Shown here: positions 40,758 through 64,000 of the stretch, one piece after another | Position numbering within the stretch: position 1 is the first letter of the stretch | Layout of the letters: every line of letters starts with the position of its first letter | Program-made: the position numbers and the translations under genes | The notes under the pieces: generated by a model | Database searches by the model: none | What the model saw: only the letters and a program-made list of their open reading frames with translations | What the model was told of the DNA's origin: nothing | Assembly: GCA_036874045.1 (NCBI GenBank) | Contig: JAZBRI010000011.1 | Location: forward strand, 1,364,001-1,428,000 | Direction of reading: 5' to 3' | DNA from: Cymodocea nodosa | Taxonomy: Eukaryota > Streptophyta > Magnoliopsida > Alismatales > Cymodoceaceae | Length of the DNA: 64,000 nucleotides

Positions 40758-41980
40758 TAATTAAAGTAATAGCCATGTAAATTTTGTTAGTAGAAGAATT
40801 AAAATAGAATTGAAAATTTTTAAAGAACTGTAACTATTGAAATGTTATATTTATAATTTAATATAAGATGCTACCAATTTTACTACTCATACAAATCTAG
40901 ATATAGTATCTTATTTTTTGCCAATATTTATGAGTTTAACAATTTCACGATGTTAAAAAGAAATCAAAATGTTTAACTGAAACTCAGTAAATGATCTGAA
41001 ATCCTGAAAGAGCTGAAATATTGATTTTTGGATTAAAGGAAATGCGTATGATCAATGATACATTTAATTTGATTGATTAAACTTGTAGAATGATTTATGT
41101 GTAGATCTTATTAAATTACAAAAAAAGTATGAGCTTATTGATATGGATTCATATTTTCAATAAATAATAAGAATAGGAATATACGAGATTTGTGTTTTAT
41201 TGCATCTGTATTAATGAAATACGTACATATACTACGTAAAAAAAGAAAAAAAAAAAGAAATTTTTTTTGAGAGTTTATTGACTTGTTTGATCACGAGCCT
41301 TTTGTACTTGAGCAGATAGGTATGTAAGGATTGTTGACCTGAAAAAGGACTCTTTAAATTTGGCAACCTAAGATCCTAATCAGATCTGGGATTGTTGACT
41401 GAAAGTTCGATACATGGGTACACTAGAAATCTCTTGTATGATTTAAGCTTGTCAAATTAACTTTTAAAGTACAAATATGCATATACTGTTATGAAAAGAT
41501 ACAAATGTTTTGTAAAATACAAATATCTTCTAAATTGAGTAATGTTTTATTATCTAAAATTGCTGAAGTAGGAATCTAGAATAGACTTTTGAAGTTGTTT
41601 ATTTGAGATACAATTCTTTATTCTACTTGTCTTAATCATATTGAATTGGATTGTGTTTTGATTTATATGTACTTGAAATTTATTCTGGAAATCATATTGG
41701 AAAGTTTAGGATGATAGATGTTGAGAAAAGAAAAAAATGATAATATAATTAACACCTAAGTGATGTTGATATATTTTGTATGAAATTTACATATATTCTA
41801 AATATATTTGCAAGTTGAAGAGGAGGAAACAAAGTTAAAATAGATTACTGAAGCATACAGAATATATATATAGTAATCTTATTTATTATTCTGAAGAAGA
41901 GCGAAATGAAGAATTAAGCTAGCACTTTAGAAAGACTAATTAGTTAAATCTTAGTTTGCTAAGGGACTAGCAAAATTTAA

Positions 41981-41992
41981 GTATGGGGGAAG
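41981..41992 (+). promoter_or_regulatory. Terminal polypurine tract, copy 2
   Basis: GTATGGGGGAAG abutting TGTTTAGAATG of the 3' LTR. Confidence 0.85.
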
Positions 41993-42776
41993 TGTTTAGA
42001 ATGAAAAAGTGCATAATATTAATAGTTAAATGATGGTTAATTGCATAATATTTAGCTTATCATATGAAAATTAAGCCATTATGTTATAATTGCACTGTTA
42101 TATGCTTTAATGAAAGAATCTGCATAATTTCAAGGAATTAGCGTTAATTTAGTACATTTCTGAACTGTCGGTAAGTTGTTGGTTTTTAATTCTTTGGTAT
42201 CCGAATTTTCTATTATTTCGGAGAGTTATATTGCATGTACCGAACAGTTATGTTTTAAACGCTAAAAGAATATTTAAGTGAACAGTAACAACTCGTTGAG
42301 TTACAGGTTTAAAGGTATAAAAAGATCACGTGAGAACTCGTTGGGTTAGCGAGTAAAAATCTTAAGTGATATATATGAACTCGTTAAGTTAGATTTATGC
42401 ACGTGTTGAATTTAAATGCTTTATTATGTCACATGAGATGCACATGTTTAACTCGTTAAGTTAGCATAACTGTACACGTTGAGTTACAAGAATACACACT
42501 AAGGTAACACGTTAGATTAGCAACTTATTTCTTTATTGCATGTGTTTTATAGTTAAATGAACGAAGTAAGTCTGTTGAGTTATTTGTAACTCCACAGACC
42601 ATTTATTTTCTAATATGCCACTGTAGCGGTTATAGAAACAGGACATTCGAAGGAAAACCACAATTGCACATATCACGTAGGAATTCACTCGTGGAAGGGA
42701 GAAGAAATCACCATCGTTGATATGAATGAAGGAAATCCAACTGATCATCTAAGCAGAAGTAGTTACCACTAAGAAA

Positions 42777-42784
42777 TATAAAAG
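42777..42784 (+). promoter_or_regulatory. LTR TATA box, copy 2
   Basis: TATAAAAG followed by a purine-rich run, conserved in all G LTRs. Confidence 0.5.
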
Positions 42785-42842
42785 AAAAGGAGAAAAGACG
42801 AAGAAGAGTGTGGTCAGTGTGTGTGGAGGAGGAAAAACCAAG

Positions 42843-43052
42843 CTATCTGCAGGTAGCGTAAGAAGTTCTCTGAAGTACCACACCAACCACCACAACCACA
42901 ACCATCACACCATAATCACCAACCATCAGAGGTCTGTGAGGATACTTTCTTGATGTCGGGTCGATTCCAAGCCAAACATAGTGCCTGACAACCATTGTGA
43001 GGAGTGATCGCGTCGCAGGAAGGGAAGCTATTTTCACCAAGCATCGACTCAT
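42843..43052 (-). other. LTR antisense ORF, copy 2
   Basis: 69 codons, MSRCLVKIASLPATRSLL start, WLGIDPTSRKYPHRPLMVG core, Val-rich end as in the tandem units at 14572-16947. Unknown product. Confidence 0.3.
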
Positions 43053-43934
43053 ATTTCAGGAGATCGTAAAGCTTCTAGCCTTGGTTTTGGGTTGATGCTA
43101 GTATGCTGAAGAGGAGATCATCTTGCAATTCTAGACTCGCGATTCTATAGGGAGAGGAGGTAGAATTGTAAGTGATTAAGTTTTCAGTGGTGTAACTACG
43201 TCGCATGTAGTGATGGAAGTTTTTACTATCAATAGAGATTACTTTTACATTTCACTTTTCGCCCATTTCCATGATCATATCAAAACAAAAATACCAAAAA
43301 CAACTTATCTGTGTTTATAGTTAGTATTTGAGTGTTGTATTGTTTGTTTTGTATCATGATTAATGTTATCATTGTCAGAGTTTTGAATGTTTCATGTTTG
43401 TTTAATTTAGAAAATAGTTTTATAGTTTATTGAATTGAATATTTCCTAATACTTAAAAATTTTAATGGTTAATGTTTGAAATATCTGAATGTTAGTATTG
43501 TTGAATGAAAAATCTAATATTAGCTAGCATTATAGAGCTTAATTGATGTTATTTACAATCTGTGGAACCGCCCAATGGTTGGCCGAATTCCTCTATAAAT
43601 AGTAGTATTAAGCTGGATTGATAGCTTCATTGAGTTACTTCAATTCCACGAGGTTAGTCCGTTGAGTTAGCTATAACTCAACGAAGTGCTTACTGAATAT
43701 ATAAATTTCATTATTAAAAACGGAATAGTACACAATTCTACCTCAATTCTTTGTGGGATCAACCTATACTTGCACACAAATACAATGTACATTGTGCACT
43801 TGCAGTTGAAAATACAAATTGGAATTAATATCTAATTTGTGTGAAAGATTGTTTGTTGACTTCTAAAAAGGAATTACTGATAATCATAAAGCTAAATTAA
43901 CTAGGTTAAAAAAAGAAGTTAACAAGCTCGAACA

Positions 43935-44414
43935 ACTGTCAATAGAGAATTTTTACATTTCACCTTTCGCTCATTTTCATGAACATCTCAAAACAAAAAT
44001 GCCTAAAACAACAACTTATCTGTGTTTGTATTTCGCATTTAAGTGTTGTATTGTTTGTTTTGTATCGTGATTAAAGTTATCATTGTTAGTATTGTGAATG
44101 TTTTATGTTTGTTTGATTCAGAAAATAGATAATAGTTTTATAGTTTACTGAAATTGATTCGTTCAAAATACTTAAAGATTTTAATAGTTACTGTTTGAAA
44201 TATCTGAATGTTAGTATGGATTAATGATAAATCTAATGTTCACTAGCATTAAAGAGCTTAATTGATGTTATTTACAATCTGTGGAACCGCCCAATGGTTG
44301 GCTGAATTCCTTTGTAAATAGCAGTATTAAACTGGAAAGATAGGCTCGTGGAGTAAACTTAAGTCCACGAGATTAGTCTGTTGAGTTAGCCATAACTCCG
44401 TGAACTTAGTCTGT
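43935..44414 (+). mobile_element. Partial G LTR fragment
   Basis: Follows directly after the copy 2 LTR end and matches an internal LTR part starting at CTGTCAATAGAG, closest to the solo LTR at 18866-20861 (20096 onward). It breaks off near GTCTGTGCTAACTCAAC where an inverted Copia-B LTR begins; that motif is common to both, so the shared repeat probably served as recombination site. Confidence 0.7.
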
Positions 44415-46130: not shown

Positions 46131-46988
46131 TGTTTAGAATGAAAAAGTGCATATTATTAACGTTTAAATGATGGTTAATTGCATAATATTTAGCTTATCA
46201 TATAAGAATTAAGCCATTATGTTATAATTGCACTGTTATATGCCTTAATTGAAGAATTTTCTTAATTTGGGGAAATTAATGTTAATTTAGTACATTTATG
46301 AATTGTCGGTAAGTTGCAAGTTGTGAAATTCTTAAGTATCCGAATTTTCTGATATTTTGGACAGTTATGATTAACATACCAAACAAATTCAGATAGTTAT
46401 GTTTAATAGACTGAATATGTATCAGATAGTTAGGTTTAAATTACCGAATAGTTACGTTTTGAGAGAATATTTTATTATTTCCTGAAGTACACATGTCGAA
46501 ACCATAATGAATGACTTAAGTGAACTTTCGGTGAGTTATCTATAACTATCCGAAATTGTAGCTGGGCATCGAATAGTTAGACCTGTAACTTTCTGAAATG
46601 TTATTTTATGATTAAACTGCTACTGACACGTGTTGAGATCTAGTAGATTTACTTAAGTTATATATCAGTGAGTTATTTATAATTATCCGAAATGCACCTG
46701 AGCATCGAATAGTTAAGTTTATAAGTATCCGAAATGCACCTAAGCATCGGATAGTTAAATTTATGCATGTGTTTTATAGTTAAATCAACGAAGAAAGTCC
46801 ATTGAGTTATCTGTAACTCCATAGACTATATATTTTCTAACATGCCATGGTAGCGGTTGCAGGAACAAACAGTTGGAGGAGAAAAACCACGTTTGCACGT
46901 ATCGCGTAGGGAAAGAAATCATCGCTGTTGATACGAATGAAGGAAATTCAACAAACCATTCAAGCAGAAGTAGTTATTATTGAAGAAA

Positions 46989-46996
46989 TATAAAAG
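46989..46996 (+). promoter_or_regulatory. 5' LTR TATA box
   Basis: TATAAAAG; transcription of the element would start about 30 bases on, in the GAAGTGTGTGATCG region. Inferred from position and conservation only. Confidence 0.5.
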
Positions 46997-47071
46997 AAAA
47001 GAAGAAAAAAGAAGAAGTGTGTGATCGATGGGCGAACAGTGTGTGTAGAGGAGGATCGACATCGCAATTCT

Positions 47072-47254
47072 CTAGAGTACCACACCAACCATCATCATCA
47101 CCATCACCACACCATAATCACCAACCATTAGAGGTCTGTGAGGATACTTGCCTGATGTCGGGTCGATTCCGAGCCAAACATAGTGCTTGACAACCACTGT
47201 GAGGAGTGATCGCATCGCGGGAAGGGAAGCCATTTTCACCAAGCGCCGACTCAT
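47072..47254 (-). other. LTR antisense ORF, copy 3 5' LTR
   Basis: 60 codons, MSRRLVKMASLPAMRSLL start and WLGIDPTSGKYPHRPLMVG core, ending early. Unknown product. Confidence 0.3.
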
Positions 47255-48188
47255 ATTTCAGGAGATCGTAAAGCTTTTAGCCTTGGCTTCGGGTTGATGC
47301 CTGTATGCTGAAGAGGAGATCATCTTGCAATTCTGGACTCGCGATTCTATAGGGAGAGGAGACAGAATTGTAAGTGGTTTAATTTTCAGTGGTGTAATCG
47401 CATTGCAAGTAGTGTCGGAAGTATTTACTATCAAGTGAGATTACTTTACATTTCACCTATCGCCCATTTCCATGTTCATATTAAAACAAAAATACCAAAA
47501 ACAATTTATCTATGTTTGTATGTTGTATTTGAGTGTTGTATTGTTTGTGTTGTATCGTGATTAATGTTATCTTTATCAGTGTTGTGATTATTTTATGTTT
47601 ATTTTAGATTTATAGTTTACTGAAATTGGTTCGTTCAAAAGACTTAAAGATTTTAATGGTTACTGTTTGAATTATCTGAATGTTAGTATTGCTTAATGAT
47701 AAATCCAATGTTAACTAGCATTAAAGAGCTTAATTGATGTTATTTACAATCTGTGGAATTGCCCAATGGTTGGCCGAATTTTTCTGTAAATAGCAGTAAA
47801 AAAAAGAAAAGGTAGGCTCATAGAGTTAACTTAAGTCCATGAGGTTAGTCCGTTGAGATAGCCATAACTCAACGAACTTAGTCCGTTGAGTTAACTATAA
47901 GTCAACGAAGAGCTTATTAAATATATAAATTTGATTGTTAACAAACGAACAGTTCTCAAGTTCGTCAGCAATTCCCTATGGGATCGACCTGTACTTGCAC
48001 ACTGATACAATAGACATTGTGCACTTGCAGTTAAAGTACAAATTGGAATTAATATCTAAATTGTATTAAAGGTTGTTTGTTTATTTCTAAAAGAAAGAAT
48101 AGGCATAAAGATAAATTAATTAAGTAAAACAGAAGTAATAAATCCAAGTTTTTCTAGTGTAGTGTTGGGAAAATCTAAACAAGTTTTA

Positions 48189-48206
48189 TGGTGCCGTTGC
48201 CGGGGA
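48189..48206 (+). promoter_or_regulatory. G element primer binding site (tRNA-Asp type)
   Basis: TGGTGCCGTTGCCGGGGA, one base off the usual Athila/Tat site TGGCGCCGTTGCCGGGGA, seven bases after the LTR. It shows this LTR is the 5' one. A GAATT-rich run (48207-48235) follows. Confidence 0.92.
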
Positions 48207-48231
48207 ATTGAATTGAATTGACTTGAATTGA

Positions 48232-48996
48232 ATTAAGCAACTGTTAGAGTTGTTTCATTTTAATAGCCAGAGTTGTGTGTTTTCTTCTGTAATTGAGAAT
48301 ATAGCATATGCTTACGCTCAAAGATTTCTGAAACCTGTAATTAGCATATGTGAATTCTGCAATTTTGAAGGACACGACATTTCTGATTGTTTGAAATTGA
48401 AACGTTTACAGATTGTTAGATCCCATGAACAACAAATGAATTATCCTCAATATAATAGAGCTGAGTATGAGAATCCTATAGTTTACTCAACTAATGGTCA
48501 GTATAGAATGTGTAATATGATGAGAGACATTGAAGTTTGGGATAGCTACGACAGACTAGAGCATAGTATAGAGCAAAATTTGGACAAACTGGAATACTTT
48601 GTGTGTCAACAACAAGAAGTCAACCAATTAAACTATAAGGAGGCATATTCAGAACCTAAACAGGATATAATTTACGAAACTGAAAAAGCCATAAAGAAAA
48701 TTGATCAACAATTGAATGCAATGAAATTAGATGATCTGGAACAAAAATTAAAAGCATTAGACGAAAATGCAATGAAAATACAAGTTATGCAACAGAACAA
48801 TGAAAATTATAATGTTATAGACCTGCATAATTTGCAAAATATATAGCAAATAGAAAAGACTAATGCAAGAGAATTTAAAGAATGCACTTTAACACTAAAA
48901 ACAATTGAAGATCATAATCACATAAATGATATACAAAAACATCATGAAAGTAATGAAAATCTAGAAATTGTTTGTGTAACATTAAGATCTGGAACT
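48232..48996 (+). pseudogene. pol: Zinc-knuckle and linker, start of G Pol frame
   Basis: Open from 48232, right behind the primer site, with no ATG before the zinc knuckle. It contains CEFCNFEGHDISDC (48349-48390), an exact CX2CX4HX4C nucleocapsid knuckle, then a Gln/Glu-rich coiled-coil linker. TAG at 48844-48846 interrupts, but the frame continues to VCVTLRSGTDMPPR, the pre-protease signature of Athila/Tat Gag-Pol. No capsid domain lies upstream; it is at 56307-57645 instead. How this frame is started (non-AUG start, spliced leader or fusion by splicing) is unknown. Confidence 0.85.
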
Positions 48997-50910
48997 GATA
49001 TGCCACCAAGAACTCAAAATGAAAATGATATGAAGGTGGACAAGAGAAAAAATCAAAATGATAATGAAAATGCAATAGCTGAAAATCTAGAAATCACTGA
49101 AGAACAATTTGAATCGGCAAATGAAGCTAAAAATGATCAAACATATCAACTAAAAGAAAAAGAGTCTTTGAAATCAAAATCTTTAGCACCCTATCCTGAA
49201 AGATTACAACAAACAATACCTGAAAGACAAGAGAAAATCAGAGAAATTTTTGAAAAAGTGCAAGTTAACATTCCTTTGTTAGATCTATTGCAGAAAATGC
49301 CACCTTGTGCTAAATTTCTGAAGGATTGGTGTACTAAGAAAAGAGAGCGGAAAATTCTTAGAAATGTCTTTTTAGTTGAGCAAAGTAGTTCCCTATTTCT
49401 ACCACAAATTCCTAAGAAGTTATCTGATCCTGGAATCCCTGTTATATCATGCACCATAGGAAATACCATTTTAGAAAGAACATTAATAGACTTAGGTGTA
49501 GGTATAAATGTTATGCCAAGTGATATATTTGCATCCTTAGGATTAGAAGACTTAACTCCTACTAGTATGGTTATTCAATTAGCAGATAGAAGTATAAGAT
49601 ACCCTAGAGGAAAAATAGAGGATGTCTTAATTAAAATCAAAAATTTTATATATCCTATTGATATTGTAATTTTAGATTCCCAACAAATTAAGCATAAAAA
49701 TAGTGATACATCTTTAATTTTGGGAAGGCCATTTTTAGCAACATTAGGGGCTGTTATCAATTGTAAAACTGGAGTAATGAAGTTAGCATATGGTAATGAG
49801 GATACTCAATTAAATATTTTCAAACCAGAAAGGTTTAAAGAGTTAGAAATGTCCTTACATACCATAGACTTTTTAGAGGATGAAGGAGATATGCTAGATG
49901 ATGTAATTCAAGAAGAATTAAATAGGCAAATCAATTCTGAAATTTTAGAAGAAAGTGAAAGCATAAATATAGAAGGAGATCGGAAAGAAATTAATTTAAA
50001 AAATGATGATGTTCAGTTAGGAGCTTTAGCTTCTGATGGGCAGCATTTAGAATTAAAACCTTTACCTCCTGAATTAACCTATATATTTCTGGAAGATAAA
50101 CGAACCTGTCTAATCATTATTGCTTCAGATTTAAAAGAGGATCAAATAGCTAAATTAAAAGATGTAGTAAAAAGTTATAAAGAAGCAATAAGATGGACTA
50201 TGACTGATATAAAAGGGTTAAGTTCAACTTTATGCTGTCACCACATATATTTAGAAGAGAATGCTAAACCTGTTAGAATTCTTGAGAGGAGATTAAATCC
50301 AAACCTTAAAGAAGTAGTCAGGAAGGAAATAGTTAAATGGTTAGATAATGATATAATTTATCCGATTTTTGATAGCTCGTGGGTTAGTCCAATCCATGTA
50401 GTTCCCAAGAAATCAGGATTAACAGTTATTAGGAATGAAAGTCAAGACTTGATCCCTAGTAGAATTCAATCAGGCTAGAGAGTATGTATAGACTATAGAA
50501 AGCTGAATGCTGTGACTAGGAAAGATCATTTTTCCTTACCTTTTATAGATCAAATGCTGGAAAGATTAGGAGGGCAAGAATATTTTTGTTTCCTAGATGG
50601 GTATTCAGGGTATAATCAAATTCTAGTAGCATTAGAGGATCAAGATAAAACAACTTTCACCTGTTCTAATGGAACTTATGCTTTTAAAAGAATGTCATTC
50701 GGATTATGCAATACGCTAGCTACCTTTCAAAGGTGTGTGCAGGGCATATTTACTGGAATGACTAAAGATTTTTTAGAAATATTTATGGATGATTTTACTG
50801 TATATGACAACTCATATGAAGTGTGTTTAAGCAATTTAGACCAAATATTAAAATGCTGTGTGGAAAAAAAATCTGGTTTTAAATTGGGAAAAATGTCACT
50901 TCATGATTAA
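48997..50910 (+). pseudogene. pol: Protease and reverse transcriptase (N-part), G copy 3
   Basis: Open 49000-50478 except for the final TAG (TGG expected in SGWRVCIDYRKLN), then continuing in the same frame to 50910. Protease: VISCTIGNTILERTLIDLG with DLG at 49489-49497, the form usual in Athila/Tat where other families have DTG/DSG. RT: SSWVSPIHVVPKKSG, RKDHFSLPFIDQML, FLDGYSGYNQI, and the catalytic FMDD at 50782-50793. A run of eight A near 50862 looks like a one-base insertion that shifts the frame in the thumb region. It would copy element RNA into DNA in the cytoplasmic particle. Confidence 0.9.
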
Positions 50911-51478
50911 ACAAGGAATAGTCTAAGGGCATGTTGTTTCTAAGAAAGGGTTGGAAGTAGATAAAGCTAAAATAGAAGTAATTTCTAATCTACCAGAACC
51001 TAAATTAGTAAAAGATATTAGATCATTTCTAGGACATGCTGGTTTTTATAGAAGATTTATTAAAGACTTTAACAAGATAGCTAGACCTTTAACTAATCTA
51101 TTAAAAGATGTTCCATTTAACTTTGATAAAAATTGCAAGGAAGCATTTTTCAGACTTAAAACTAATTTAATTTCAACTCCTATAATTCAAGCACCTAATT
51201 GAAACCATCCATTTGAATTAATGTGTGATGCTTCCGATTTTGTTGTAGGAGCAGTGTTAGGACAGAAGATAGAAAAATCTCCTAGAGTGATTCATTATGC
51301 AAGCAAAACCTTAAATGATGCTCAAGTTAATTACACAACTATTGAAAAAGAATTATTAGCTGTTGTGTTTGCTTTAGAAAAGTTTAGATCATATCTAATT
51401 GGAGCTAAAGTAATAGTATACACAGATCATTCAGCTCTAAAACATCTAATAAAGAAAAAGAAATTAAACTTAGATTGA
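50867..51478 (+). pseudogene. pol: RT thumb and RNase H, G copy 3
   Basis: Second frame after the A-run shift: NLVLNWEKCHFMIKQGIV, a TAA, then FLGHAGFYRRFIKDFNKIAR (connection), TGA at 51200-51202 (TGG expected), then RNase H with the acidic residues in LMCDASD, TIEKELLAVV and YTDHSAL. The frame shifts again near 51465 before the RLIRW-type segment. All expected motifs are present in order, so decay is recent compared with the age of the fold. Confidence 0.88.
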
Positions 51479-52907
51479 TCCGATGGATATTATTATTACA
51501 AGAATTTGATCTAGAAATTAAAGATAAAAAAGGTTGTGAGAATGTAGTAGCAGATCATTTATCAAGATTACAAATAGAAAAATCAAATATTGAAATTAAG
51601 GATAATTTTCCTGATGAGCAATTAATGACCATTAACACAATACCTTAGTATGCAGACATAGTTAATTACTTAGTTACTGGTTTAACACCTAAGAATTGGA
51701 ATAGATAGGATAAGAAATTATTTTTCTCAAGAGTAAAATATTACTATTGGGAAGACCCATACTTATTTAAGAAATGTCCTGATCTGGTTTTAAGGAGGTG
51801 TGTTCTAGAAACTGAATATCCGAGCATATTGTCTTTCTGTCATGACCAAGCTTGTGGAGGGCATATTGGTTCAGGGAAAACTACTGCAAAAATTCTGCAA
51901 TGTGGGTTTTACTGGCCAACACTATTCAAAGATGCTCATAAATATTGCTTAAGTTGTTTAAGATGTCAACAAATAGGAAGAATATCAAAGAGGAATATGA
52001 TGCCTCTTAATCCTATTGTTGAGGTTGAAATCTTTGATGTGTGGGGAATAGATTTTATGGGTCCATTTCCTATGTCTAATCAATTTAATTACATATTGTT
52101 GGGGGTGGATTACGTCTCTAAATGGATAGAAGCTATTCCTACAAAAACTAATGATAACAAAGTGGTAATACAATTTATAAGAACAAATATATTTTCCAGA
52201 TTTGGAATACCTAAAGCTATTAACAGTGATGGAGGAACTGATTTCTATAATAGAAGTTTTGAAACCTTAATGAAGAAATATGGTGTAAACCACAAAATTG
52301 CAACATCATATCGTCCGCAAACAAGTGGACAAGTAGAAAGTGCAAACAAACAAATTAAATTAATCTTGGAAAAAGTAGTAAATCCTACTAGAATAGATTG
52401 GGCTAAAAGATTGATAGATGCACTTTGGGCTTATAGAATTGCTTATAAAACAAGCTTAGGTATGTCACCTTTTAGGCTAGTATATGGAAAAAGTTGTCAT
52501 TTACCTGCTGAAATAGAACATAAAGCTTATTGGGCATTAAAAACTCTGAACACTAATTTAAATCAAGCTGTTGAAAATAGGAAAATGCAACTAATTGAAT
52601 TAGAAGAATTTAGAAATGAAGCTTATTCGAAGACTGTAAGAGAAAAAGAAAAAATTAAATTTTGGCATGATAGAAAAATTATTCCTAAAAGCTTTGAAAT
52701 AGGATAAGAAGTATATCTTTATATGGCTAGACTCCATAACCATCCAGGAAAATTGAAATCTAGATGGGCAGGACCTTACATAGTTCAAAATATTTATCCT
52801 TATGGAGAGTAAATGGACAAAGACTTAAACCTATTCTGAAAACACCAAAAAGCTCCTTTGGAATTATAGAAGAAGTCAGAGTAAAGGACTACTCGAGCTT
52901 TACTTAG
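51479..52907 (+). pseudogene. pol: Integrase, G copy 3
   Basis: Linker from [20 protein letters not shown] (two TAG at about 51646 and 51706), HHCC zinc-binding part (His 51841 and 51862, Cys 51946 and 51955), then the catalytic core with Asp 52051-52053, Asp 52228-52230 and Glu 52336-52338: DD35E spacing intact. Open from about 51709 to TAA 52705-52707 (CAA in copy 2). The C-terminal part then has a 40-bp deletion after TATGGAG compared with copy 2. It joins element cDNA to target DNA. No chromodomain seen. Confidence 0.92.
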
Positions 52908-53466
52908 TAAGAATTCAGTTTTTATGTTTATAAATATATATATATATAAAAAAAACATTAAAAATATATATAAAACATAAAATTCATTACGGTTCAACCA
53001 ACTGGATCCATCAGTATGACCAAAACATAAAAAATATGTATATTAATTTTCAAAAAAAAAAATATATATTGGTATTACCGAAACATAGTATCGGTTCAAC
53101 CGAAAGAAAAATAACAAAAATAAAAAATACTTAGGTCTGACCGAAACATAGTATCAGTTAAACTGGTAAAAAAATAGAAAAACTATTCTCTATAATATTT
53201 TTATTATATTTGCTTGTACGGGGAGTCCGTTGAGTCTTTAGTTAGTCAACGAGCTTATTCCGTTGAGTTAACTGTAACTCAACAGAGTACTGTAGCTAAG
53301 ACCTCAGATAAAATAGTAATAGTTGGTTCGGGAAATGACCCGATTACCCGCCTAAACTTAGGACTTATTTAAACTAAAACCTAAGGTTTTGGGGGCATTA
53401 TCTGGCAAATCATTTAGAATCTAGAACAGTAGAAATCATAGCGATTCCGTGCTGTTGTGTAACTCC
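52908..53466 (+). other. Integrase-ORF X intercistronic region, copy 3
   Basis: No gene seen. A/T-rich start with a TATATA run at 52937, CCGAAACATAGTATCGGTT palindrome-like boxes (53020-53165), hairpin at 53261-53284 (CGTTGAGTTA-actg-TAACTCAACA), and the GATTACCCGCCTAAACTTAGG block at 53341. Confidence 0.6.
53261..53284. repeat. Intercistronic hairpin, integrase/ORF X, copy 3
   Basis: Arms of 10 bp with one mismatch and a 4-base loop; equivalent to 34191-34216. Confidence 0.8.
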
Positions 53467-55359
53467 ATGATGAGGAAGATGATGCTTGAATTCTAAGAAG
53501 AGGCAACTGAAGGACAAGAGGAGCCGACTGCTGAAAGACCTATTTCTGAGGAGTAGCCGCTTGGACCTTTAGTCCCACCATTTAAGCCGTTGGCACAAGT
53601 AGAAATGATGGGGCCTTCCACTGAAGAAGAAATAAGAGAATTTGTAGAACTAGTTCAAGTTAGGAAGAACCAAGGAGAATCAGAAGATTTGACAATGGCC
53701 AAAGCACACCTAGTGTTTGATGCACTTTACAAAAAGAGGGCTGCAGAAAAGTTGAAAGCCCAATATAAAATCAAAGTGGAACAGCATCACGCAGCTACTA
53801 CTAGAACTGTTGCCAAACCTGTTGCAAAAGGAGATGAAGCTGGTCCTTCGAGACTAGTAATTATAGGAAAAGTTAAACAGGAAGAGCCAGTACCTATGGC
53901 TCGAAGGCCTACAGAGCCTACTTTTGTAGATTTAATTTCAGAAGATAAAGAGGAAGAATAGGCACAACTAATCAGAAAAAAGAAAGGAAAAGAAAAAGTG
54001 CTTGAATATGAGGAAATTAAATCTGAAGTACCAATTTTTACAGGGCCTGTAGAGCAGATTTTTATTAACCTGCTATCCGATTCTGAGGAGGAGCAGAAGG
54101 AGCAAAGAAAAGAAAAGAATTAGGCTGAAATTAGTCTATAGCTTGTACAAGAAGAAATAGAAAGTAGGGCAAAAACTGAATTGCCCGTGACTCCATCCCA
54201 ATCTGTTACAGAATCAGAAAGAATAATAACAGAACAGATTGGTAGTCAGGAGGAGCAAGAAAGAGCAGAAAATGAAGAGGTTGAAAGAAGCCATTTGGAC
54301 AAAACTAATTTCAAAGATTCCACTAAAGAGCAAGAAACTCTTCAGCAAATTATGGAAAGAATTCAAGAAAGAGTGGAGAGTTATGCTGGCTCACCACCAA
54401 AGACAGAAGCAAAAGCAAAAATTTAGAAATTTGAAGAGAATGTCCAAATGCAGCCTATGCTAGAAGAAGATCAAGAACAAACCCCTTAGGAGAAACAAAG
54501 TCACCTTCCTAACCCGACTGAAACAACAATTTTGAATGAAGTACATTTTTGTAGTTAGGAAGCTTATACCAAATATCAAGAAATAAGGGGTTACGATATT
54601 ATTTACAGTAGACCAGTAAATTGGGATGGAATGCAAGAAATCAAAGATCTATTTGAATTCCAAGGTCTACAGCAATTCATTTCACAAGAGAGAGGGCATG
54701 TAGTATATGAAAATTTAGTGCCCTGTTTTTATGCTAATTTGAGAGAAGGAGAAGGAGGATTAATTTCAAACGTGGAGGAAGCTGATGTATAGATAACACC
54801 AGAGCTTCTCCACAATATTTGTGGTTTAAAGAATGAAGGAATAACAATTTTGGAAGATACAACTGTAGTGGAATGGACTGAACAGCAAATTAAGGATTGT
54901 TTAGCTATCAATCCTGGTGTGCCATTATTAAACAGATTGAAGCATTTAAATGGTAAAGCACACATGGTAGCTAACATTCTGATTAAGAATGTCTATCAAC
55001 GATAGGGCCATGACATAGAATTAAGTCAATTTGTCAAATGGGCCACATATGCAGTTGTAAATAAGATCCAAATAAATTGGTCTACAGTTTTCATCTCCAA
55101 GCTGAAAACAGTGAAGAAGAAATTATTTTATGAAGATTTGATTCCACTGCTGATGGTGGACTGTATCGATTTCACTAAGTGGACATCAAAAAGGATCAGA
55201 TCAAGAACCATTTTAGTGAAAGAATATAGAAATTTTGTAGCTGCAGAACTAGCTGTACCTTCTAGAGGAATTACAGGAGCAGTAGAGAGAATTAATCAAT
55301 TAGAGCTTCAATTAGAAAAACTCCAGAAGGAAGTAGATGAACTTAGGCATAGAGATTAA
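53467..55359 (+). pseudogene. ORF X, G copy 3
   Basis: Same frame from ATG 53467 to TAA 55357, 630 codons with about ten stops and no net frameshift; roughly 110 codons of the N-terminal part of copy 2 are deleted after FWEE-like residues. Longest open parts are 53590-53961 and 55111-55359. It contains the PTFVDLISEDKEEE repeat, the PLLNRLKHLNGKA and KLFYEDLIPLLMVD segments of the plant-transposon-like domain, and the C-terminal coiled coil INQLELQLEKLQKEVDELRH. Most stops in one copy are CAG, CAA or TGG in the other; TAG before GHDIEL (55003, and 36283 in copy 2) is shared by both copies. Confidence 0.7.
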
Positions 55360-56306
55360 ATTGTATTGTTCGTCTACTTATGTAAAGTTGTATGAAATTG
55401 TATGATGTACTTGTAATGTAATTGATTCATATTAATGAATATAATTTTTCAGATGCAATTTTCATACGTGTTTTGGATGTGAAATGAATGGAATTTATTG
55501 AATATTATGTCATTGTGGAACTTTATGAATGAATATGTAACAGATTTACAATTTGCTGAATGACAGGATAACTGCTTAAAAATTTCTGCATGTTATAAGG
55601 TAAAATGTAAATTCTTCATAACATAAAATGACCTGCAAGTTAAATCTTTATATAATGTTCAGATTTAAATGTATTTTAATCAAAATGATGCATTAATGAC
55701 ATAGATTTAACTTTATTACAGTTAGCAGAATGAAAAAGAAAGAAAAAAGAACAGAGAGGAACTTACGAGAGTAGAACTTAGAAGTTGCTAAGTATTAACT
55801 CAACGAAGTAAGTCCGTTGAGTTAATCGTAACTCCACGAGGTCAGTAATATAATATAAGGTCACTCCGTTGAGTTATCAATAACTCAACGAAGTTAGTCT
55901 GTGGAGTTAGCAACAGTAACCAACTATATTCTGTTGAGTTTTCTGTAACTCAACGAGGTTAGTTTGTGGATTAAGCAGAACAGTTATTCTTTTGACCACG
56001 AACGAAACTTCGTCAGTTTAGCGGTTACCAAAATTTGAAACTAGTAGTAGTACACGTACCCATTAAAACAGGAACCACGATGCATGTTGCAAGACACGTT
56101 CTTGCAACGAGATTTATTCACTTTATGGATGCGCAGTATATATATAAAACAGAATGTTATTTACGGGTACCAGCACTTTTAAAAGAAAGGAGAATGCATT
56201 AGAGGAACTAGAAGGAGAAGCAGCTGATTCAACTTCATCCGACAACCAATATTTATAGAATGGAAAGCTTTAGACTGGTATCTAATTAATCTTCTGCTAT
56301 TTATTT
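55360..56306 (+). other. ORF X-Gag intercistronic region, copy 3
   Basis: No gene seen. AT-rich, with hairpins at 55797-55990, then a conserved stretch with GACACGTTCTTGCAACGAG near 56092, a possible TATATATA at about 56139 and the Gag leader. Collinear with 36639-37581. Confidence 0.55.
55797..55990. repeat. Intercistronic hairpins, ORF X/Gag, copy 3
   Basis: Includes CGTTGAGTTA-tcaa-TAACTCAACG (55867-55890, perfect), flanked by TAACTCAACGAAG / GTCCGTTGAGTTA and by GTTGAGTTT-tctg-TAACTCAACGAGG. Same succession as 37061-37245. Confidence 0.88.
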
Positions 56307-57645
56307 ATGAGCACATGGACTCATTCTCTAAGCACTAAACGATTAGTAAGAACACCTACCTAGGAATTTTCATTGTAGAGGAGTACTGAAAAATTTTCTG
56401 AACTGAACTTTAACGAAATTCTTTACGGTGTAGCTAACCTTTCTTTAAAAGAGAACGTAGAGATGGCTGCGCCAGTAGAAAAACCATTAGGAGAGATTTT
56501 GTATCCTGAATTAATTGATGAACCTTCATGTATTCGATTGCCAAACTTTGAGGGAGATAGGTTTGAACTGAAATCTAATTATATTAATCAATTGCCAAAT
56601 TTTCATGGATTAGAAAGAGAGGAAGCCTAATATTTCCTTAGAGAATTTAACGAAGTTTGTCAAATGATGAAAATGTTGAACATGAGTATAGATGCTATTA
56701 AACTTAGATATATTCCTTTTTCTTTAAAAGACACAGCTAAGAGATGGTTATATACTATGTCGCCTGATTCAATTTCTACATGGACTGAATTTTGCTTTAT
56801 TTTTCTGGAAAAATATTATCCAACACATCAAACGATTAAAAAGAAGAAAGAAATATTAATGTGTAGCCAAAAACAAGGTGAATCATTCTGAAAATATTTT
56901 CAAAGATTTAAAGATTTACTAACTCAATGTCCACATCATGCAATGAGTAGGGCACAACTAATAGGTATAATTTATAAAGGCATAGATGTTTCAACGAAAT
57001 CTTTATTAGAATCTACTTGTCAAAATGGATTTTTAAAGTTATGTAGTGAAGAAGATGGGCATATTTAGAAAATTTTGCAAAAAGAACTACATAGTGGGAA
57101 AATTTAGTTGAAGCTGTTGCAGATAAAAGAATATTGCCAAGAGGAATGCATGAAATAAATTCCAATACTATGCTTGAGGTGAAATTAAATGAATTAACAA
57201 AGAAAATAGAAGAGTTATCATTAAATCAAAAGCTAGCAGAAAAGAATGCAAACATAAATGACTTAGATATTATTTATGCTAGAAGCCAAAGAGATAACTT
57301 GGGAAATTCTTATCATCCTAATTGGAGAAATCACCCGAATTTATCTTGGAGAAACAACAATTTCCAGGGAGGAGGAAATATAATGAGAACATAAGTTATG
57401 AAGTATTACTTGAACAAGGATCTATAATAGAGAAATTAGAAAAGATAATCCAACAAGTAAACAATCGTCTAGAATTTATATTTGGAAATGCTGCAATTCA
57501 AAATCAGAATAGAAATATATCACTTAGACAGAAGGAACCAATGGAAGTTAGACCTACTAGAGGATTGCCAATACAAGCTATACCTAATCCTGTCAATAGA
57601 ACAGTTAATGAAATTGATACCTCTTCTAGGAGGGCAGTTGAATGA
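56307..57645 (+). pseudogene. gag: Gag capsid ORF downstream of integrase, G copy 3
   Basis: ATG 56307 (MSTWTHSLSTKRLVRT), TAG after about 18 codons, then MAAPVEKPLGEILYPE and the capsid core: FELKSNYINQLPNFHG, FNEVCQMMKMLNMSID, KDTAKRWLYTMSPDSIS, YYPTHQTIKKKKEIL, a TGA at 56889 (TGG expected), FKDLLTQCPHHAMSRAQ. A 1-bp loss near 57050 and another change near 57370 shift the frame. The C-terminal part has coiled coil, NWRNHPNLSWRNNN, then a Pro/Arg-rich end with TGA at 57643. No zinc knuckle. It should form the particle shell; the knuckle to bind RNA is 8 kb upstream in the Pol frame. Confidence 0.9.
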
Positions 57646-57721
57646 AGTAGCATATCTGAAGCAACTATCTGTATGTATATATGTTTTTTATTTTTAGTTA
57701 TTAGTATTGTAGAGTTAATTT

Positions 57722-57772
57722 TTAACTCAACGAACTTAGTCCGTTGAGTTATGCCTTAACTCCACGAGGGTG
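57722..57772. repeat. Intercistronic hairpin, Gag/F-box, copy 3
   Basis: TAACTCAACG-aacttagtc-CGTTGAGTTA (perfect 10-bp arms, 9-base loop), followed by TTAACTCCACGAGG. Confidence 0.85.
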
Positions 57773-57835
57773 TGCAGTAGTTATGTTAATTTTTGTCTCT
57801 GCTAAATTTTTGTTTGTGTTTTACAAAATCGACAA

Positions 57836-58975
57836 ATGGAATTGATGCAATTACCATTGGATGCACTAAGGGAAGTACTAAGTAACTTGTCAGCTAAAGA
57901 TCTGTGCAGGCTGTGTTGTGTATCAAAGGAAATTAAAGACTATATTGAAGAAAAATATTTTCAGGGATTACAAGCTGCAAAAATGACTAAGATTAGAGAT
58001 GGATTCATATGGAGGTCATTTAATCGTAGTTCAAATACCCATGAATATCTGGCTATGGAAGAAACTACTGGAATTCCACCCAATGCATTAGAAGAAATAA
58101 ATCATATTATGGGGATAGATGAAGGATTAATCATATATAAGACGAGACCAAGGTATGCAAGTTTATTATTACCTGATATTTTGATAAGAAATCCTATAAC
58201 AGAAGAAGAATGGAATATAGGAAGACCTAATAGATTTGAAGCACCAACTGTAAATTGTAGGTCAGCTTTAATATTTTTTGATAAAAATTTTGCAATTCCT
58301 AAAAAATTATATTATTGGAGACCTACAGGAAATTGGAGTGAAGATTTACGCTTAAGTGTGTACAATTTTCTAAATAGATCTTGGAATGAAAACATTATAA
58401 TATATCTAGGATAGAAATCATTAATTAACCAAACACATGTCATACTTAATGGATATATCTATTTAGTCACAGAGATATCAATAGCATATAGATCTGATTT
58501 ATACATAGTGAGCATAGACAATTATGAAGATTATATAGAAATTTTACCTATACCGAGTGAAATAGCTAAACCACCATCTACAGAATTTAATGAAATTCAA
58601 ATAGGAATGTGGTATAATGAAGAAGATGATCCTACTTTATGTTTGATAAGATGGTGGGATGAACTGATGAAATTTCAAATATGGATTATGGAAGACATGA
58701 ATGAATGGAAGTGGGAAGAGGAGTATATTGAAATAGATGTAGAAATAGAAACTGCTACATTACCCTAGAATCAAAAAGGATCCCTTTCTGCATTAAATAT
58801 CATTAATGGTAATACACTCGTATTTGAAATTTATAATATATTGCATGTTTACAAATTAAAAAGGAACAAGAATTGCATTAAAACAGAATTAATAGTAAGA
58901 AGAGTTATGCCTAAAAAGTTTGCTTGGACTGATACATTTATTCCACTTGTTTCTACTTTTCAATCATGTTCTTAA
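57836..58975 (+). pseudogene. Captured F-box protein, G copy 3
   Basis: ATG 57836 to TAA 58973, 379 residues. The first 192 codons are open and contain the complete F-box (LPLDALREVLSNLSAKDLCR at residues 6-25, then CVSKEIKDYIEEKYF). TAG 58412 and TAG 58766 (TGG in copies 1 and 2) break the rest, which keeps frame to the end. The downstream region fits an F-box-associated domain (LIRNPITEEEWNIG, then Trp-rich strands). Comparing three copies, only substitutions and one-codon length differences are seen in 380 codons, unlike the Gag and Pol frames; this hints at former selection on the protein. It may have steered SCF ubiquitination toward a host defence factor; that is speculation. Confidence 0.88.
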
Positions 58976-59408
58976 GATGTGATTTTGTGTGTTTAATGTT
59001 GTGTATTCTGCATTTATTTAAAAAAAAAAAAAAATTGAAGTTTTCATGTTCATTTTATAAAAATAAAAACAAACAAAACAAAATATCAATCCAGTTTGTT
59101 GGTATCTGTTCTGGGAAACCAACTGGCTTGCTTGTGAGCCACTAAAGGCATATGAGCCTGGGTTCCACACAAGACACTAATTTATTAATATCTGTTAAAT
59201 GTTATTTTGTTTTATATTTTGCTTTTATCTGTGAATGAAAAGTTTTTCAGAATCAAAAATCAGAATATGCAGAAGGAGATACAAATGAAACAAGGTATGT
59301 AACTAATTACTCATCCTGAATTTTAAATCAAGCAAAACTGTATTCATGCCTGCTACAATTACTGTATTTATTGTCAAATCTTTTACATTGAGGACAATGC
59401 AAAATGTA

Positions 59409-59422
59409 GGTATGGGAGGGAG
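59409..59422 (+). promoter_or_regulatory. Internal polypurine tract, copy 3
   Basis: GGTATGGGAGGGAG after ATTGAGGACAATGC, in the same place as in the other copies. Confidence 0.5.
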
Positions 59423-60211
59423 GTAATTAAAGTAACAGCCATGTAAGTTTGTTAATTAAAGGAATTAAAATGGTACTGCAAAGTTTTGAGGAAATTGAAA
59501 ATTTTTATGAACTTGCTGTAACTATCCGATAATTGAGATTGTAAAATTTTCTATAACTGCTTGAATGTTATATTTAGAAGGCTATATAAGATGCTACTGA
59601 ATTTACTATTTATGCAAATCTAGATATAGTATCTTATGTTTTTCTGAATTTCATGAGTTTAACAGTTTCACGATTTTAAAATGAAATCAGAATGCTTAAT
59701 AAAAAATTAGTAAATTATCTGAAGTCCTGAAAGAGCTGAGATGTGAATTCTAGATTAAATGAAACACGTATGATTCAAGATACATTTAATTTGACTGATT
59801 GAACTTGTAGAATGATTTATGTGTAGATCTTGTTAAACTACAGAAAAAGTATGAGCTTATTGAGATGGATTCATATTTTTAGTAAATGATAGAAGCAGGA
59901 CTATATGAGATTGGTGATTACTACATCTGTATTAATGAAATATGTACATATATAGTACGTGATTAATGTTTTGTTTTGTGTGTTGAAAAAAAAAAAAGGA
60001 AAATTTTGAGAGTTTATTGACTTGTTTGATCACGAGCCTTTTGTACTTGAGCAGATAGGTATGTAAGGATTGTTGACCTAAAAAAGAACTCTTGAAATCT
60101 AGCAACCTAAGATCTTGATCAGATCTGGGATTGTTGACTGAAAGCTCGTTACATGGGTACATTAGAAAGCTCTTATATGATTCAAGCTTGTGAAATTAAC
60201 TTTTAAAGTAC

Positions 60212-60215
<4 letters not shown>

Positions 60216-60247
<32 letters not shown>
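60216..60247. repeat. TA microsatellite
   Basis: About 14 TA units in the copy 3 tail; other copies have only a single ATATGCATATAC there. Confidence 0.95.
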
Positions 60248-60250
<3 letters not shown>

Positions 60251-60706
60251 CTGTTCTGAAAAGATACAAGTGTTTTGTGAAATATAGATATCTTATGAAT
60301 CGAGTATATTTTCTGTTATCTAGAATTGCTGAAATATGAATCTGGAATTGACTTTTGAATTTGTTTAATGGAGATACAATTCTTTATTCTGCTTGTCTTA
60401 TTCGGATTGAATTGGATTGTACTTTGATTCGTATGTTGTTGAAATTTCTTCTAGAAATCTTATTGAAAAATTCAGGATGACAAATGATGGAAAGAATAAA
60501 CGATAATATAATTAACACCTATATGATGATGATATACTTTGTATGTAATTTACATATATTCTAAATATCTTTGCAGGTTGATTACTGAAACATACAGAAT
60601 ATATTTTTATGCTGAATAGAAGAAAAACAAAGGGGAAGAATTAATTCTAGCACTTTTAAAGACCAATTAATTAGATCTTAGTTTGCTAAGGGACTAGCAA
60701 AATTTA

Positions 60707-60719
60707 GGTATGGGGGAAG
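60707..60719 (+). promoter_or_regulatory. Terminal polypurine tract, copy 3
   Basis: GGTATGGGGGAAG abutting the 3' LTR. Confidence 0.88.
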
Positions 60720-62770
60720 TGTTTAGAATGAAAAAGTGCATATTATTAACATTTAAATGATGGTTAATTACATAATATTTAGCTTATCATATAAGAATTA
60801 AGTCATTATGTTATAATTGCACTGTTATATGCCTTAATTAAAGAATTTACTTAATTTGGGGGAATTAATGTTAATTTAGTACATTTATGAACTGTCGGTA
60901 AGTTGCAGGCTGTGAAATTCTTAAGTATCCGAATTTTCTGATATTTCGGACAGTTATGTTTAACATACCAAACAAATTCAGACAGTTATGTTTAATAGAC
61001 CGAATATGTATCGGATAGTTATGTTTAAATTGCCAAATAGTTATGTTTTGAGAGAATATTTTATTATTTCCTGAAGTACACGTGTCGAAACCATAATGAA
61101 TGACTTAAGTGAACTTTCAGTGAGTTATCTATAACTATCCGAAATTGCAGCTAGGCATCGAATAGTTAGACCTGTAACTCTCTGAAATGTTATTTTATGA
61201 TTAAACTGCTGCTGACACGTGTTGAGATCTGGTAGATTTACTTAAGTTATATATCGGTGAGTTATTTATAATTATCCGAAATGCACCTGAGCATCGAATA
61301 GTTAAGTTTATAAGTATCCGAAATGCACCTGAGCATCGGATAGTTAAATTTATGCACGTGTTTTATAGTTAAATCAACGAAAAAAGTCCGTTGAGTTATC
61401 TGTAACTCCACGGACTATATATTTTCTAATATGCCATGGTAGCGGTTGTAGGAACAGACAGTTGGAGGAGAAAAACCACGTTTCCATGTATCGCGCAGGG
61501 AAAGAAATCATCGCAGTTGATACGAATGAAGGAAATCCAATTGACCATTCAAGCAGAAGCAGTTATTACTAAAGAAATATAAAAGAAAAGAAGAAAAAAG
61601 AAGAAGTGTGTGATCAATGGGCGGACAGTGTGTGCAGAGGAGGATCGGTGTCGCAATTCTCTAGAGTACCACACCAACCATCATCATCACCATCACCACA
61701 CCATAATCATCAACCATCGGAGGTCTGTGAGGATACTTGCCTGATGTTGGGTCGATTCCGAGCTAAACACAATGCCTGACAACCACTGTGAGGAGTGATC
61801 GCGTCGCGGGAAGGGAAGCCATTTTCACCAAGCGCCGACTCATATTTCAGGAGATCGTAAAGCTTTTAGCCTTGGCTTCAGGTTGATGCCTCTATGTTGA
61901 AGAGGAGATCATCTTACAATTCTGGACTCGTGATTCTATAGGGAGAGGAGACAGGATTGTAAGTGGTTTAATTTTTAGTGGTGTAATCGCATTGCAAGTT
62001 GTGTCGGAAGTATTTACTGTTAAGTGAGATTACTTTACATTTCACCTGTTGCCCATTTCCATGTTCATATTAAAACAAAAATACCAAAAACAATTTATCT
62101 ATGTTTGTATGTTGTATTTGAGTGTTGTATTGTTTGTGTTGTATCATGATTAATGTTATCTTTGTCAGTGTTGTCAGTGTTTTATGTTTATTTTAGATTT
62201 ACAGTTTACTGAAATTGGTTCGTTCAAAAGACTTAAAGATTTTAATGGTTACTATTTGAATTATTTGAATGTTAGTATTGCTTAATGATAAATCCAATGT
62301 TAACTAGCATTAAAGAGCTTAATTGATGTTATTTACAATCTATGGAATCGCCCAATGGTTGGCCGAATTCCTCTATAAATAGTAGTAAAAAAAAGAAAAG
62401 GCAGGCTCGTGGAGTTAACTTAAATCCACGAGGTTAGTCCGTTGAGATAGCCATAACTCAACGAACTTAGTCCGTTGAGTTAACTATAAGTCAACGGAGA
62501 GCTTATTGAATATATAAATTTGATTGTTAACAAACGAACAGTTCTCAAGTTCGTCAGCAATTCCCTATGGGATCGACTTGTACTTGCACACTAATACAAT
62601 AGACACTGTGCACTTGCAGTTAAAATACAAATTGGAATTAATATCTAAATTGTATTAAAGGTTGTTTGTTTACTTCTAAAAGAAAGAATAGGCATAAAGA
62701 TAAATTAATTAAGTAAAACAGAAGTAACAAATCCAAGTTTTTCTAGTGTAGTGTTGGGAAAATCCAAACA
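60720..62770 (+). mobile_element. 3' LTR of complete G element
   Basis: 2051 bp, equal in length to the 5' LTR, TGTTTAGAATG to AAAATCCAAACA. It contains CACGTG 61079-61084 and CTTAAG 61104-61109 (19 bases apart), several TCGGATAGTTA / CTATCCGAAA pairs, a TATA box (61578-61585) and a stop-broken antisense ORF near 61640-61830. Confidence 0.93.
61578..61585 (+). promoter_or_regulatory. 3' LTR TATA box
   Basis: TATAAAAG, as in the 5' LTR; could drive transcription into the outer element's tail. Confidence 0.45.
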
Positions 62771-63415
62771 GGACTCTTTAAATCTGGAAACCTAAGATCC
62801 TTATCAGATCTGGGATTGTTGACTGAAAGCTCGATATATGGGTACACTAGAAAGCTCTTGTATGATTCAAGCTTTTCAAATTAACTTTTAAAGTACAAAT
62901 ATGCATATACTATTCTGAAAAGATAAAAGTGTTTTGTGAAATACAGAAATCTTTTGAATCAAGTATATTTTCTGTTATCTAAGATTACTGAAGTATGAAT
63001 CTAGATTAGGCTTTTGAAGTTGTTTATTTGAGATACAATTCATTATTCTACTTGTTTTAATCATATTGAATTGGATTGTGTTTTGATTTATATGTAGTTG
63101 AAATTTATTCTGGAAATCATATTGGAAAATTGAAGATAACAGATGTTTGAAAAGAAAAAAGATAATATAAATAACACCTATATGATGCTAATATATTTTG
63201 TATGTAATTTACATATGTTTTGAATATATTTGCAGGTTGAAGAGGAGAAAACAAAGTTAAAATAGATTACTGAAAAATACAGAATATCTATATAGTAATC
63301 TAATTAATTAGTTTGAAGAAGAATGAAATGAAGAATTAATTCTAGCACTTTAGAAAGACCAACTAGTTAGATCTTAGTTTGCTAAGGGACTAGCAAAATT
63401 TAAGTATGGGGGAAG
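62771..63415 (+). mobile_element. Tail of the outer G element, right part
   Basis: Continues 46130 at GGACTCTTTAAATCTGG and ends with terminal polypurine tract GTATGGGGGAAG before TGTTTAG at 63416. It shows that the complete element inserted into another member of its own family. Confidence 0.82.
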
Positions 63416-64000
63416 TGTTTAGAATAAAAAAATACATAATATTAAGGGTTAAATGATGGTTAATTGCATAATATTTAGCTTATCATATAAGAATTAAGCC
63501 ATTATGTTATAATTGCACTATTATATGCTTTAATGAAGGAATCTGCATAATTTCAAGGAATTAGCGTTAATTTATTACATTTCTGAACTATCGGTGAGTT
63601 ACAAGCTTTGAAATTCTTAAGTATCGAAATTTTTTGTTAATTCAGAGAGTTATGTTTAATGTACCGGACAGTTATGTTTTAAACGATAGAAGAAGATTTT
63701 ATTATTTCTTGAAGTACACATGTTGAAACTTCAATGCATGACTTAAGTGGATTTTCAGTAAGTTATCTGCTAACTATCTGAAATTCATCTAGGCATCGGA
63801 TAGTTAAGGTTTGTAAGTATTCGAAATATCTAAACTCATAAAGTTAGATTTATGCACGTGTTGAATTTAAATGCTTTATTATGTCACGTGAGATGCACAT
63901 GTTTAACTCGTTAAGTTAGCATAACTATATGCATTAAGTTACATGAATACACACTAAGATAATGCATTATGTTACTACCTTATTTCTTTATTACATGTGT
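63416..64000 (+). mobile_element. 3' LTR of the outer G element, cut by window end
   Basis: TGTTTAGAATAAAAAAATAC start, same subfamily as 41993-43934: it carries the Copia-B-like ACTCGTTAAGTTAG / CACGTG segment at 63840-63980. Confidence 0.82.

Follow-up and report, generated by a model that had tools for sequence, protein, structure and literature searches.

In Ty3/gypsy retrotransposons, Gag before Pol is treated as fixed (PMC6317226, PMC7879559). A survey of plant elements gives the class order as GAG-PROT-RT-RH-INT and removed elements of unexpected order as likely mispredictions (PMC6317226), and a family profile lists gag, pol and then, where present, env after integrase (PMC7879559). 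Diaspora carries gag and pol in a single open reading frame (ORF) with gag first, and the same is stated for the Athila and Calypso consensus elements (PMC1142308). The families described here depart from that order. One of them is represented in a 64,000-nucleotide stretch of the Cymodocea nodosa genome (assembly GCA_036874045.1, contig JAZBRI010000011.1, our contig 11, positions 1364001-1428000), hereafter the window, in which a retrotransposon at 46131-62770 carries its capsid gene, the rear gag, behind integrase.

The rear-gag order is real, heritable, common to four families and under selection. It quite probably reflects an Athila-like lineage that split Gag from Pol, with gag placed behind integrase and the zinc knuckle left at the start of Pol. 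The putative label Athila-like is drawn from gag and protease similarity, the type of primer site and the LRSG and NHPN motifs, which we take to be linked to Athila, and not from a reverse transcriptase (RT) tree. The nearest protease and gag relatives are plant proteins that are unnamed or generically named.

Gene order in the window and across the genome

The features of the window element, between its long terminal repeats (LTRs), and of its two partial relatives in the window are as follows; the half-site repeats are nine-base words treated below with expression.

46131-48181, + strand: 5' LTR (TG...CA), 2051 bp, pairing with 60720-62770
48189-48206, + strand: primer-binding-site-like sequence TGGTGCCGTTGCCGGGGA, 7 nt past the 5' LTR, recognised by sequence
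48232-48843, + strand: N-terminal part of the Pol ORF, containing a CX2CX4HX4C zinc knuckle (~48349-48390)
48847-50475, + strand: linker, aspartic protease and start of RT; Pfam protease match at ~49450-49734
50479-50907, + strand: RT core (Pfam RVT_1, 3.6e-18)
50927-51475, + strand: connection and RNase H (Pfam RT_RNaseH, 5.5e-32, at 51203-51475)
51709-52704, + strand: integrase (Pfam rve, 4.9e-14; Integrase_H2C2, 8.9e-12)
52708-53556, + strand: integrase-X spacer with two half-site repeats (53262, 53275)
53557-55359, + strand: ORF X, interrupted, in the position of an env-like ORF
55360-56306, + strand: pre-gag spacer with seven half-site repeats (55796-55954) and a TATA word (56137-56148)
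56307-57645, + strand: separate rear gag ORF (capsid, without zinc knuckle), broken; placed by Pfam pieces, a profile of outside gags and alignment of relatives
57646-57835, + strand: gag-F-box spacer with three half-site repeats (57723, 57743, 57757)
57836-58975, + strand: F-box protein ORF with two stops in this copy (Pfam F-box, 1.6e-10, at 57806-58411)
60709-60719, + strand: polypurine tract TATGGGGGAAG, immediately 5' of the 3' LTR, recognised by sequence
60720-62770, + strand: 3' LTR, 2051 bp, pairing with 46131-48181
32959-~43925, + strand: copy 2, a related element of which the 3' portion is present, with integrase end, X, gag (37582-38925), F-box and LTR
4051-6598, + strand: copy 3, limited to the end of F-box, the 3' region and the start of the LTR, 93% identical to 39464-42029

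The order protease-RT-RNase H-integrase is that of usual Ty3/gypsy Pol, and paired LTRs, primer site and purine tract are present both here and in a B1 element described below (L013/L014; L numbers denote loci). Where Ty3/gypsy elements have Gag before protease, the capsid here stands solely behind integrase. The knuckle of the window copy was read by eye, Pfam giving no match there; the protease match, preceded by the LRSG motif, is weak (0.0039, below the family cut-off), and Retrotrans_gag scores 6.3e-9 at 56631-56888. A single RNase H was seen by Pfam scan, with no search aimed at the additional RNase H (aRH) of Tat, Ogre and Retand. A comparison with PHROGs gave no match. The primer site is a candidate for the tRNA-Asp type reported for Diaspora and Calypso, which it resembles in sequence.

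The two LTRs are 95.1% identical over 2051 bp (91 transitions, 10 transversions). There is no clean target duplication (5' flank AAGAAG, 3' flank GGACTC), and the flanks run into each other in a related copy (45389-46129/59341-60088; 60081-61168/62766-63806). Copy 2 is about 80% identical in DNA to the window element (copy 1) and repeats its order integrase end-X-capsid-F-box (DNA comparison, tblastn). The original prediction, which had read knuckle, protease, RT, RNase H and integrase followed by X and capsid, and the integrase-X-capsid order again in copy 2, was confirmed, coordinates included, by these comparisons and by Pfam, with the knuckle by eye, although copy 2 is an element's 3' part only. 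The F-box ORF at 57836-58975, copy 3 and the broken state of the copies had not been part of that prediction. A single group of elements is nested across the window, where many more LTR fragments from relatives, in part inverted, lie at 1871-4047, 14335-24236, 41993-44414 and 63409-64000.

Stops and frameshifts break the window copies, which could therefore not have settled by themselves whether the order is a real trait. These broken copies, together with the reduction of copies 2 and 3 to 3' fragments, are what an assembly error, or one dead rearranged insertion spread by segmental duplication, would have in its favour. Evidence from the whole genome (374.6 Mb, 28 contigs) bears on this. Retrotrans_gag (PF03732) gave 4640 candidates at first look; 150 were scored and 30 examined, namely the top 8 by rank and 22 hand-picked across contigs and ranks (2 of them for long open frames). 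Integrase lies upstream on the same strand in 23 of the 30, and another five have ORF X upstream on the same strand, with integrase beyond the reach of the stretch; one further match (L030) has no upstream sequence in the data and is outside the count. All of the top 8 have integrase on the same strand, ~0.5-0.65 kb 5' of the capsid match.

Four divergent families carry the rear-gag order: A, to which the window element belongs, and B1, B2 and B3. Relative to the window's sequences, integrase pieces are ~90% identical in A and ~60% in B, and capsid CA2 pieces ~90% and ~50%. The clearest element is of family B1 (C9:340271-354480, 14.2 kb, L013/L014). Its LTRs are 95.3% identical (L013 1772-4373, L014 4348-6981) and flanked on both sides by a perfect 5-bp target duplication, CTACA; the primer site lies at L013:4380, 6 nt past the 5' LTR, and the interior comprises Pol with its knuckle from ~L013:5565, the integrase end at ~L014:887 and gag at ~1150-2571. 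Paired LTRs and a perfect target duplication indicate that the rear-gag order inserted as a unit. L009/L010 likewise has LTR matches across both sides, as does L017/L018, where the end of the stretch truncates them; those in L015/L016 and L019/L020 are shorter. Among the paired-LTR elements, L013/L014 is the one for which a target duplication is established. With the same order on many contigs, in families ~60% identical in integrase, with that target duplication and with the selection and clade tests below, an assembly error or single dead copy is extremely improbable, and it was ruled out.

Two profiles, one of them built from five outside gags only, detected no capsid from the 5' LTR to the protease in the window or in L009, L011, L013, L015, L017 and L019; this search preceded the addition of loci L031-L040. 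The outside-gag profile detects capsid in every gag-bearing locus then in the set (E down to 3e-93), and the sole extra match, on the minus strand of L015, is located before that element's LTR. The B1 and B2 leaders are ~1.1 kb long, with short upstream ORFs and no long ones. The leaders L011:4630-5814 and L009:4310-5364, at the usual location of capsid, are AU-rich and have several short ORFs before Pol.

One rear gag (L020:1304-2665, 454 aa, Retrotrans_gag 2.3e-21) is intact. It aligns with P0002, a normal gag-protease protein, from the N-terminus (W-R..RL region) across capsid as far as the final part of gag; the alignment stops about where P0002 continues into LRSG and protease. Rear gags of B1 (L012) and B3 (L023) retain their own knuckle, which is absent from those read in A and B2. 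At the front, the nucleocapsid-like Pol knuckle of the better copies follows closely after the ATG, as M..CTKCMLFDHENDEC in B1 (L011, L013), M..CFSCFANDHVTSEC in B2 (L009) and M..CEFCNSEGHNISDC in A (L019); this reading covers A, B1 and B2, the L015 frame not being recovered and the B3 front end lying outside the data. The window copy lacks the front-ORF ATG. In L018:1232-3262, gag and the F-box ORF are joined in a single 677-codon open frame, apparently via a deletion.

Among the best 120 of 1431 outside relatives of the front ORF, protease is preceded within one ORF by capsid-end sequence in 10 (by the profile of outside gags) and by the NHPN segment in 15; P0002 and P0007 are built in the same way. 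The remaining listed relatives are ORFs that start later and are uninformative on gag position. P0051 and P0059 start shortly 5' of a knuckle yet continue into the NHPN gag segment, unlike the front ORFs of these elements, from which that segment is absent. The arrangement of front knuckle and rear gag was not seen in outside proteins, protein records being unable to display what follows integrase.

Selection, phylogeny and origin of the rear gag

Between copies 1 and 2, the ratio of nonsynonymous to synonymous divergence (dN/dS) is 0.25 for integrase (171 codons), 0.22 (223 codons) and 0.25 for capsid, 0.38 and 0.16 for the 5' and 3' parts of X, and 0.48 for the F-box ORF. Capsid cores, compared with the first 16 codons of each skipped, give 0.35 within A, 0.29 within B1 and 0.40 within B3 (one pair); the B2 value of 0.13 is unsafe, dS being saturated in 8 of 36 pairs. 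Between families, dN is 0.25-0.40 and dS is saturated. The front knuckle region of family A copies has dN/dS of 0.22-0.39, with two of six intervals reaching 0.94-1.0. Judged by its codons, the rear capsid is under purifying constraint, and for this reason the rear-gag order is not a dead rearrangement.

In the capsid tree, 20 rear gags form one clade (100/99) against six outside gags, of which P0002 clearly continues into protease in one ORF, the others being cut short or ambiguous. The 20 are drawn from 24 cores; L001, L002, L007 and L008 were dropped as the same elements as L010, L012, L014 and L016. In the protease tree, ten linked proteases form one clade (100/100) against nine outside ones (9 of 67 proteins after removal of near-identical ones; B3_L022 with 37% of columns), with the program flagging long branches that meet and the root unsure. 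Both trees separate A from B1-B3. A single origin of the rear-gag order is the simplest reading of these sequences.

That capsid after integrase is a transmitted trait, as originally predicted, is therefore upheld by four families, a perfect target duplication, constrained capsid codons and the lack of any front capsid found. As far as the relatives read go, the condition that would have refuted it did not occur: in their 5' ends no capsid was found before protease.

Several points weigh against this reading. One of the 30 matches, L023, has neither integrase nor X within the 3.3 kb fetched upstream. Stops or frameshifts occur in the gag of each element whose LTRs are paired and full (window, L009/L010, L013/L014, L017/L018), and the intact rear gag of L020 belongs to an element with a partial LTR match only. 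The within-family dN/dS values include post-insertion decay. Finally, canonical gag-first helper elements may exist in the same genome. The elements could then be non-autonomous, their rear gag a captured passenger or second gag and their particles built in trans from the Gag of gag-first elements. Gag-less parasites are known, such as BARE2 (PMC3735527), and seven Retand clusters are reported without GAG (PMC11963269). However, the rear capsid has been as constrained as integrase since before the family split, rear gags account for 28 of the 29 testable matches among the 30 examined, and the gag and protease trees agree; non-autonomy appears quite improbable.

If Gag and Pol were split within an Athila-like lineage, a gag copy may have landed behind pol by recombination or template switching between elements. 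Next, the front copy would have lost its capsid and kept its knuckle, and the rear copy would have lost its knuckle in families A and B2.

The primer-site remnant that a simple tandem fusion of elements would leave between integrase and gag was absent at up to 5 mismatches in the stretch before 21 gag copies, and blastn found no LTR remnant there in B1 or B2. In family A, blastn located LTR matches in the integrase-gag region around the half-site repeats.

Expression of the rear gag and the accessory frames

Frameshifting, readthrough or processing is the usual means of setting the ratio of Gag to Pol. In the arrangement described here, full-length RNA would yield Pol, and a second RNA or initiation event would yield excess Gag. 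Pol, unfused to Gag, might enter the particle by binding genomic RNA via its own zinc knuckle.

The internal region of the window element contains 12 occurrences of the family A half-site (GT[TG]GAGTTA, on either strand), against 0.18 expected by chance (highest value 2 in 200 Markov resamplings). Two of them lie in the spacer ahead of X, seven in that ahead of gag and three in that ahead of the F-box ORF, with none in ORFs or the 3' region. A pair in the 3' LTR (61390, 61403; span 61390-61411) stands directly 5' of the TATA-like ctatatatttt; its 5' LTR counterpart is mutated. A second LTR pair lies near the LTR end (47865-47893), ahead of Pol. The repeats are palindromic, with spans at 47865-47893, 53262-53283, 55796-55954, 57723-57765 and 61390-61411.

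Between copies 1 and 2, identity is 80-97% (mean 88%) in the seven-site block before gag and 43-87% (mean 66%) in the 270 bp 5' of it. All 10 copies whose gag ATG is recognised have a TATA word 164-181 bp 5' of it, and the remaining 3 have one at the corresponding position. With LTR-promoter repeats and a TATA word before gag, separate initiation of gag from its own mRNA is favoured in family A; the second RNA would most likely come from an internal promoter in the X-gag spacer that repeats the TATA-adjacent elements of the LTR. The predicted separate Gag mRNA, which would uncouple the dosage of Gag from that of Pol, is plausible, and sequence features of family A support it.

Against such a promoter, the 300 bp 3' of the block are also 67-90% identical (mean ~80%), which makes the block less distinct downstream, and TATA-like words are frequent in AT-rich DNA. 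The gag cluster may instead act as RNA, its fold (z -4.4) beating 100 of 100 shuffles. The half-site and TATA arrangement has no counterpart in the B1 and B2 spacers, where there is no LTR-like sequence.

Another proposal is that translation of rear Gag starts on the full-length RNA itself, through an internal entry site or reinitiation, with half-site hairpins as intercistronic signals. Besides the folding of the gag cluster, this would suit the clusters that precede X, gag and the F-box ORF, and the one that precedes Pol within the 3' part of the LTR. However, no usable compensatory changes were found by eye among 13 copies, the changes being mostly single-base and often at CpG, and the same half-sites stand beside the LTR TATA box, 5' of the presumed transcript start. 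Internal entry is rated as unlikely.

The half-site and TATA layout being absent from B1 and B2, a single expression mechanism does not fit all families. Alternatively, splicing instead of an internal promoter could yield a subgenomic mRNA for rear Gag, as it does in BARE and EVADE, except that here a downstream exon would be joined. Plants are known to make spliced mRNAs for Gag (PMC3735527; PMC8892269). Most copies of B1 (tgtttttcttagcag) and of B2 (tatttcag) have acceptor-like tracts ahead of gag, and a donor-like GTAAGT occurs ~0.9 kb past the primer site in two of three B1 leaders (L011, L013). The four B1 copies (L012, L014, L016, L028) have no in-frame ATG 5' of the conserved W-R..RL start region, beside these acceptor-like tracts, which suggests a spliced 5' exon. 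In contrast, GTAAGT is lost at that place in the third B1 leader (L015) and no such donor exists in the leaders of B2 (L009) and family A, the acceptor-like tracts are mutated in L012, L003 and L024, and in L020, of family A, gag has an open ATG with no splicing needed. As a general account, splicing is a genuine possibility that falls somewhat short of even; for B1-B3, splicing from the leader would be at least as likely as an internal promoter.

ORF X has dN/dS of 0.15-0.40 (0.15-0.20 for copy 1 against four others). Four pieces of X were scanned, and in these no Pfam family, including Athila ORF-1 (PF03078), was above cut-off; PF03078 is reported in 16% of Athila members (PMC6317226). Copies 1 and 2 share a TAG at the same codon of X (55003, 36282), and other stops in the compared pieces differ. 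In the family A copies L036, L039 and L019/L020, X is absent or nearly so between integrase and gag, so X may be dispensable or lost late.

The F-box ORF sits between gag and 3' LTR in family A (57836-58975, 39146-40279, 4054-4866, L018, L020, L026, L029). It is mildly constrained between its two sublineages, where nine of the 10 pairs have a dN/dS of 0.44-0.57 and an interval that stays under 1; the tenth, a short one, gives 0.72 with an interval to 1.34, and most close pairs are indistinguishable from 1. No homologue was found at E <= 0.001 among 965 candidates in a protein search.

A bolder version of the split-lineage reading would have Gag and Pol stably uncoupled, Pol first with its own packaging knuckle, and X, Gag and F-box expressed separately in the manner of a multi-gene virus, each behind its repeat cluster, with the F-box protein perhaps turning a host ubiquitin ligase on a defence factor. 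This is speculative and on the whole doubtful.

Comparison with known elements

What is new is the arrangement, the ORF split and the placement of the knuckle; the parts are homologous to known Ty3/gypsy parts. No description of a gag-after-pol lineage was found in the open-access literature searched, and within it the original statement that no described lineage has a 3' capsid held. Since the plant survey removed unexpected domain orders, rear-gag elements may have been discarded before, and annotation filters of this kind can hide real lineages. A multi-family, Pol-first lineage also makes the reason for gene order testable, in respect of Gag excess and of Pol entry into particles without fusion.

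Foamy viruses are animal retroviruses with gag before pol, and their Pol is not made as a Gag fusion. They are alike in working, with a Gag that lacks zinc fingers and an internal promoter (PMC12789967), and no kinship is claimed. In the Ty1/copia elements BARE and EVADE, a subgenomic mRNA of its own likewise favours Gag (PMC3735527; PMC8892269), but there Gag is at the 5' end and the separation is achieved by splicing (in EVADE also by early polyadenylation), not by gene order. Retand, Grande and RIRE2 also carry extra coding regions between pol and 3' LTR (PMC7264820); these are env-like, antisense or unclassified ORFs added to a normal gag-pol, whereas here gag itself occupies that place. 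With Athila, Calypso and Diaspora these elements share a related Gag and protease type, the CX2CX4HX4C knuckle, a primer site a few nucleotides past the LTR, long LTRs and, in most members, an extra ORF after integrase. In those elements gag comes first within a gag-pol ORF, whereas here the capsid is separate behind integrase and Pol begins with the knuckle.

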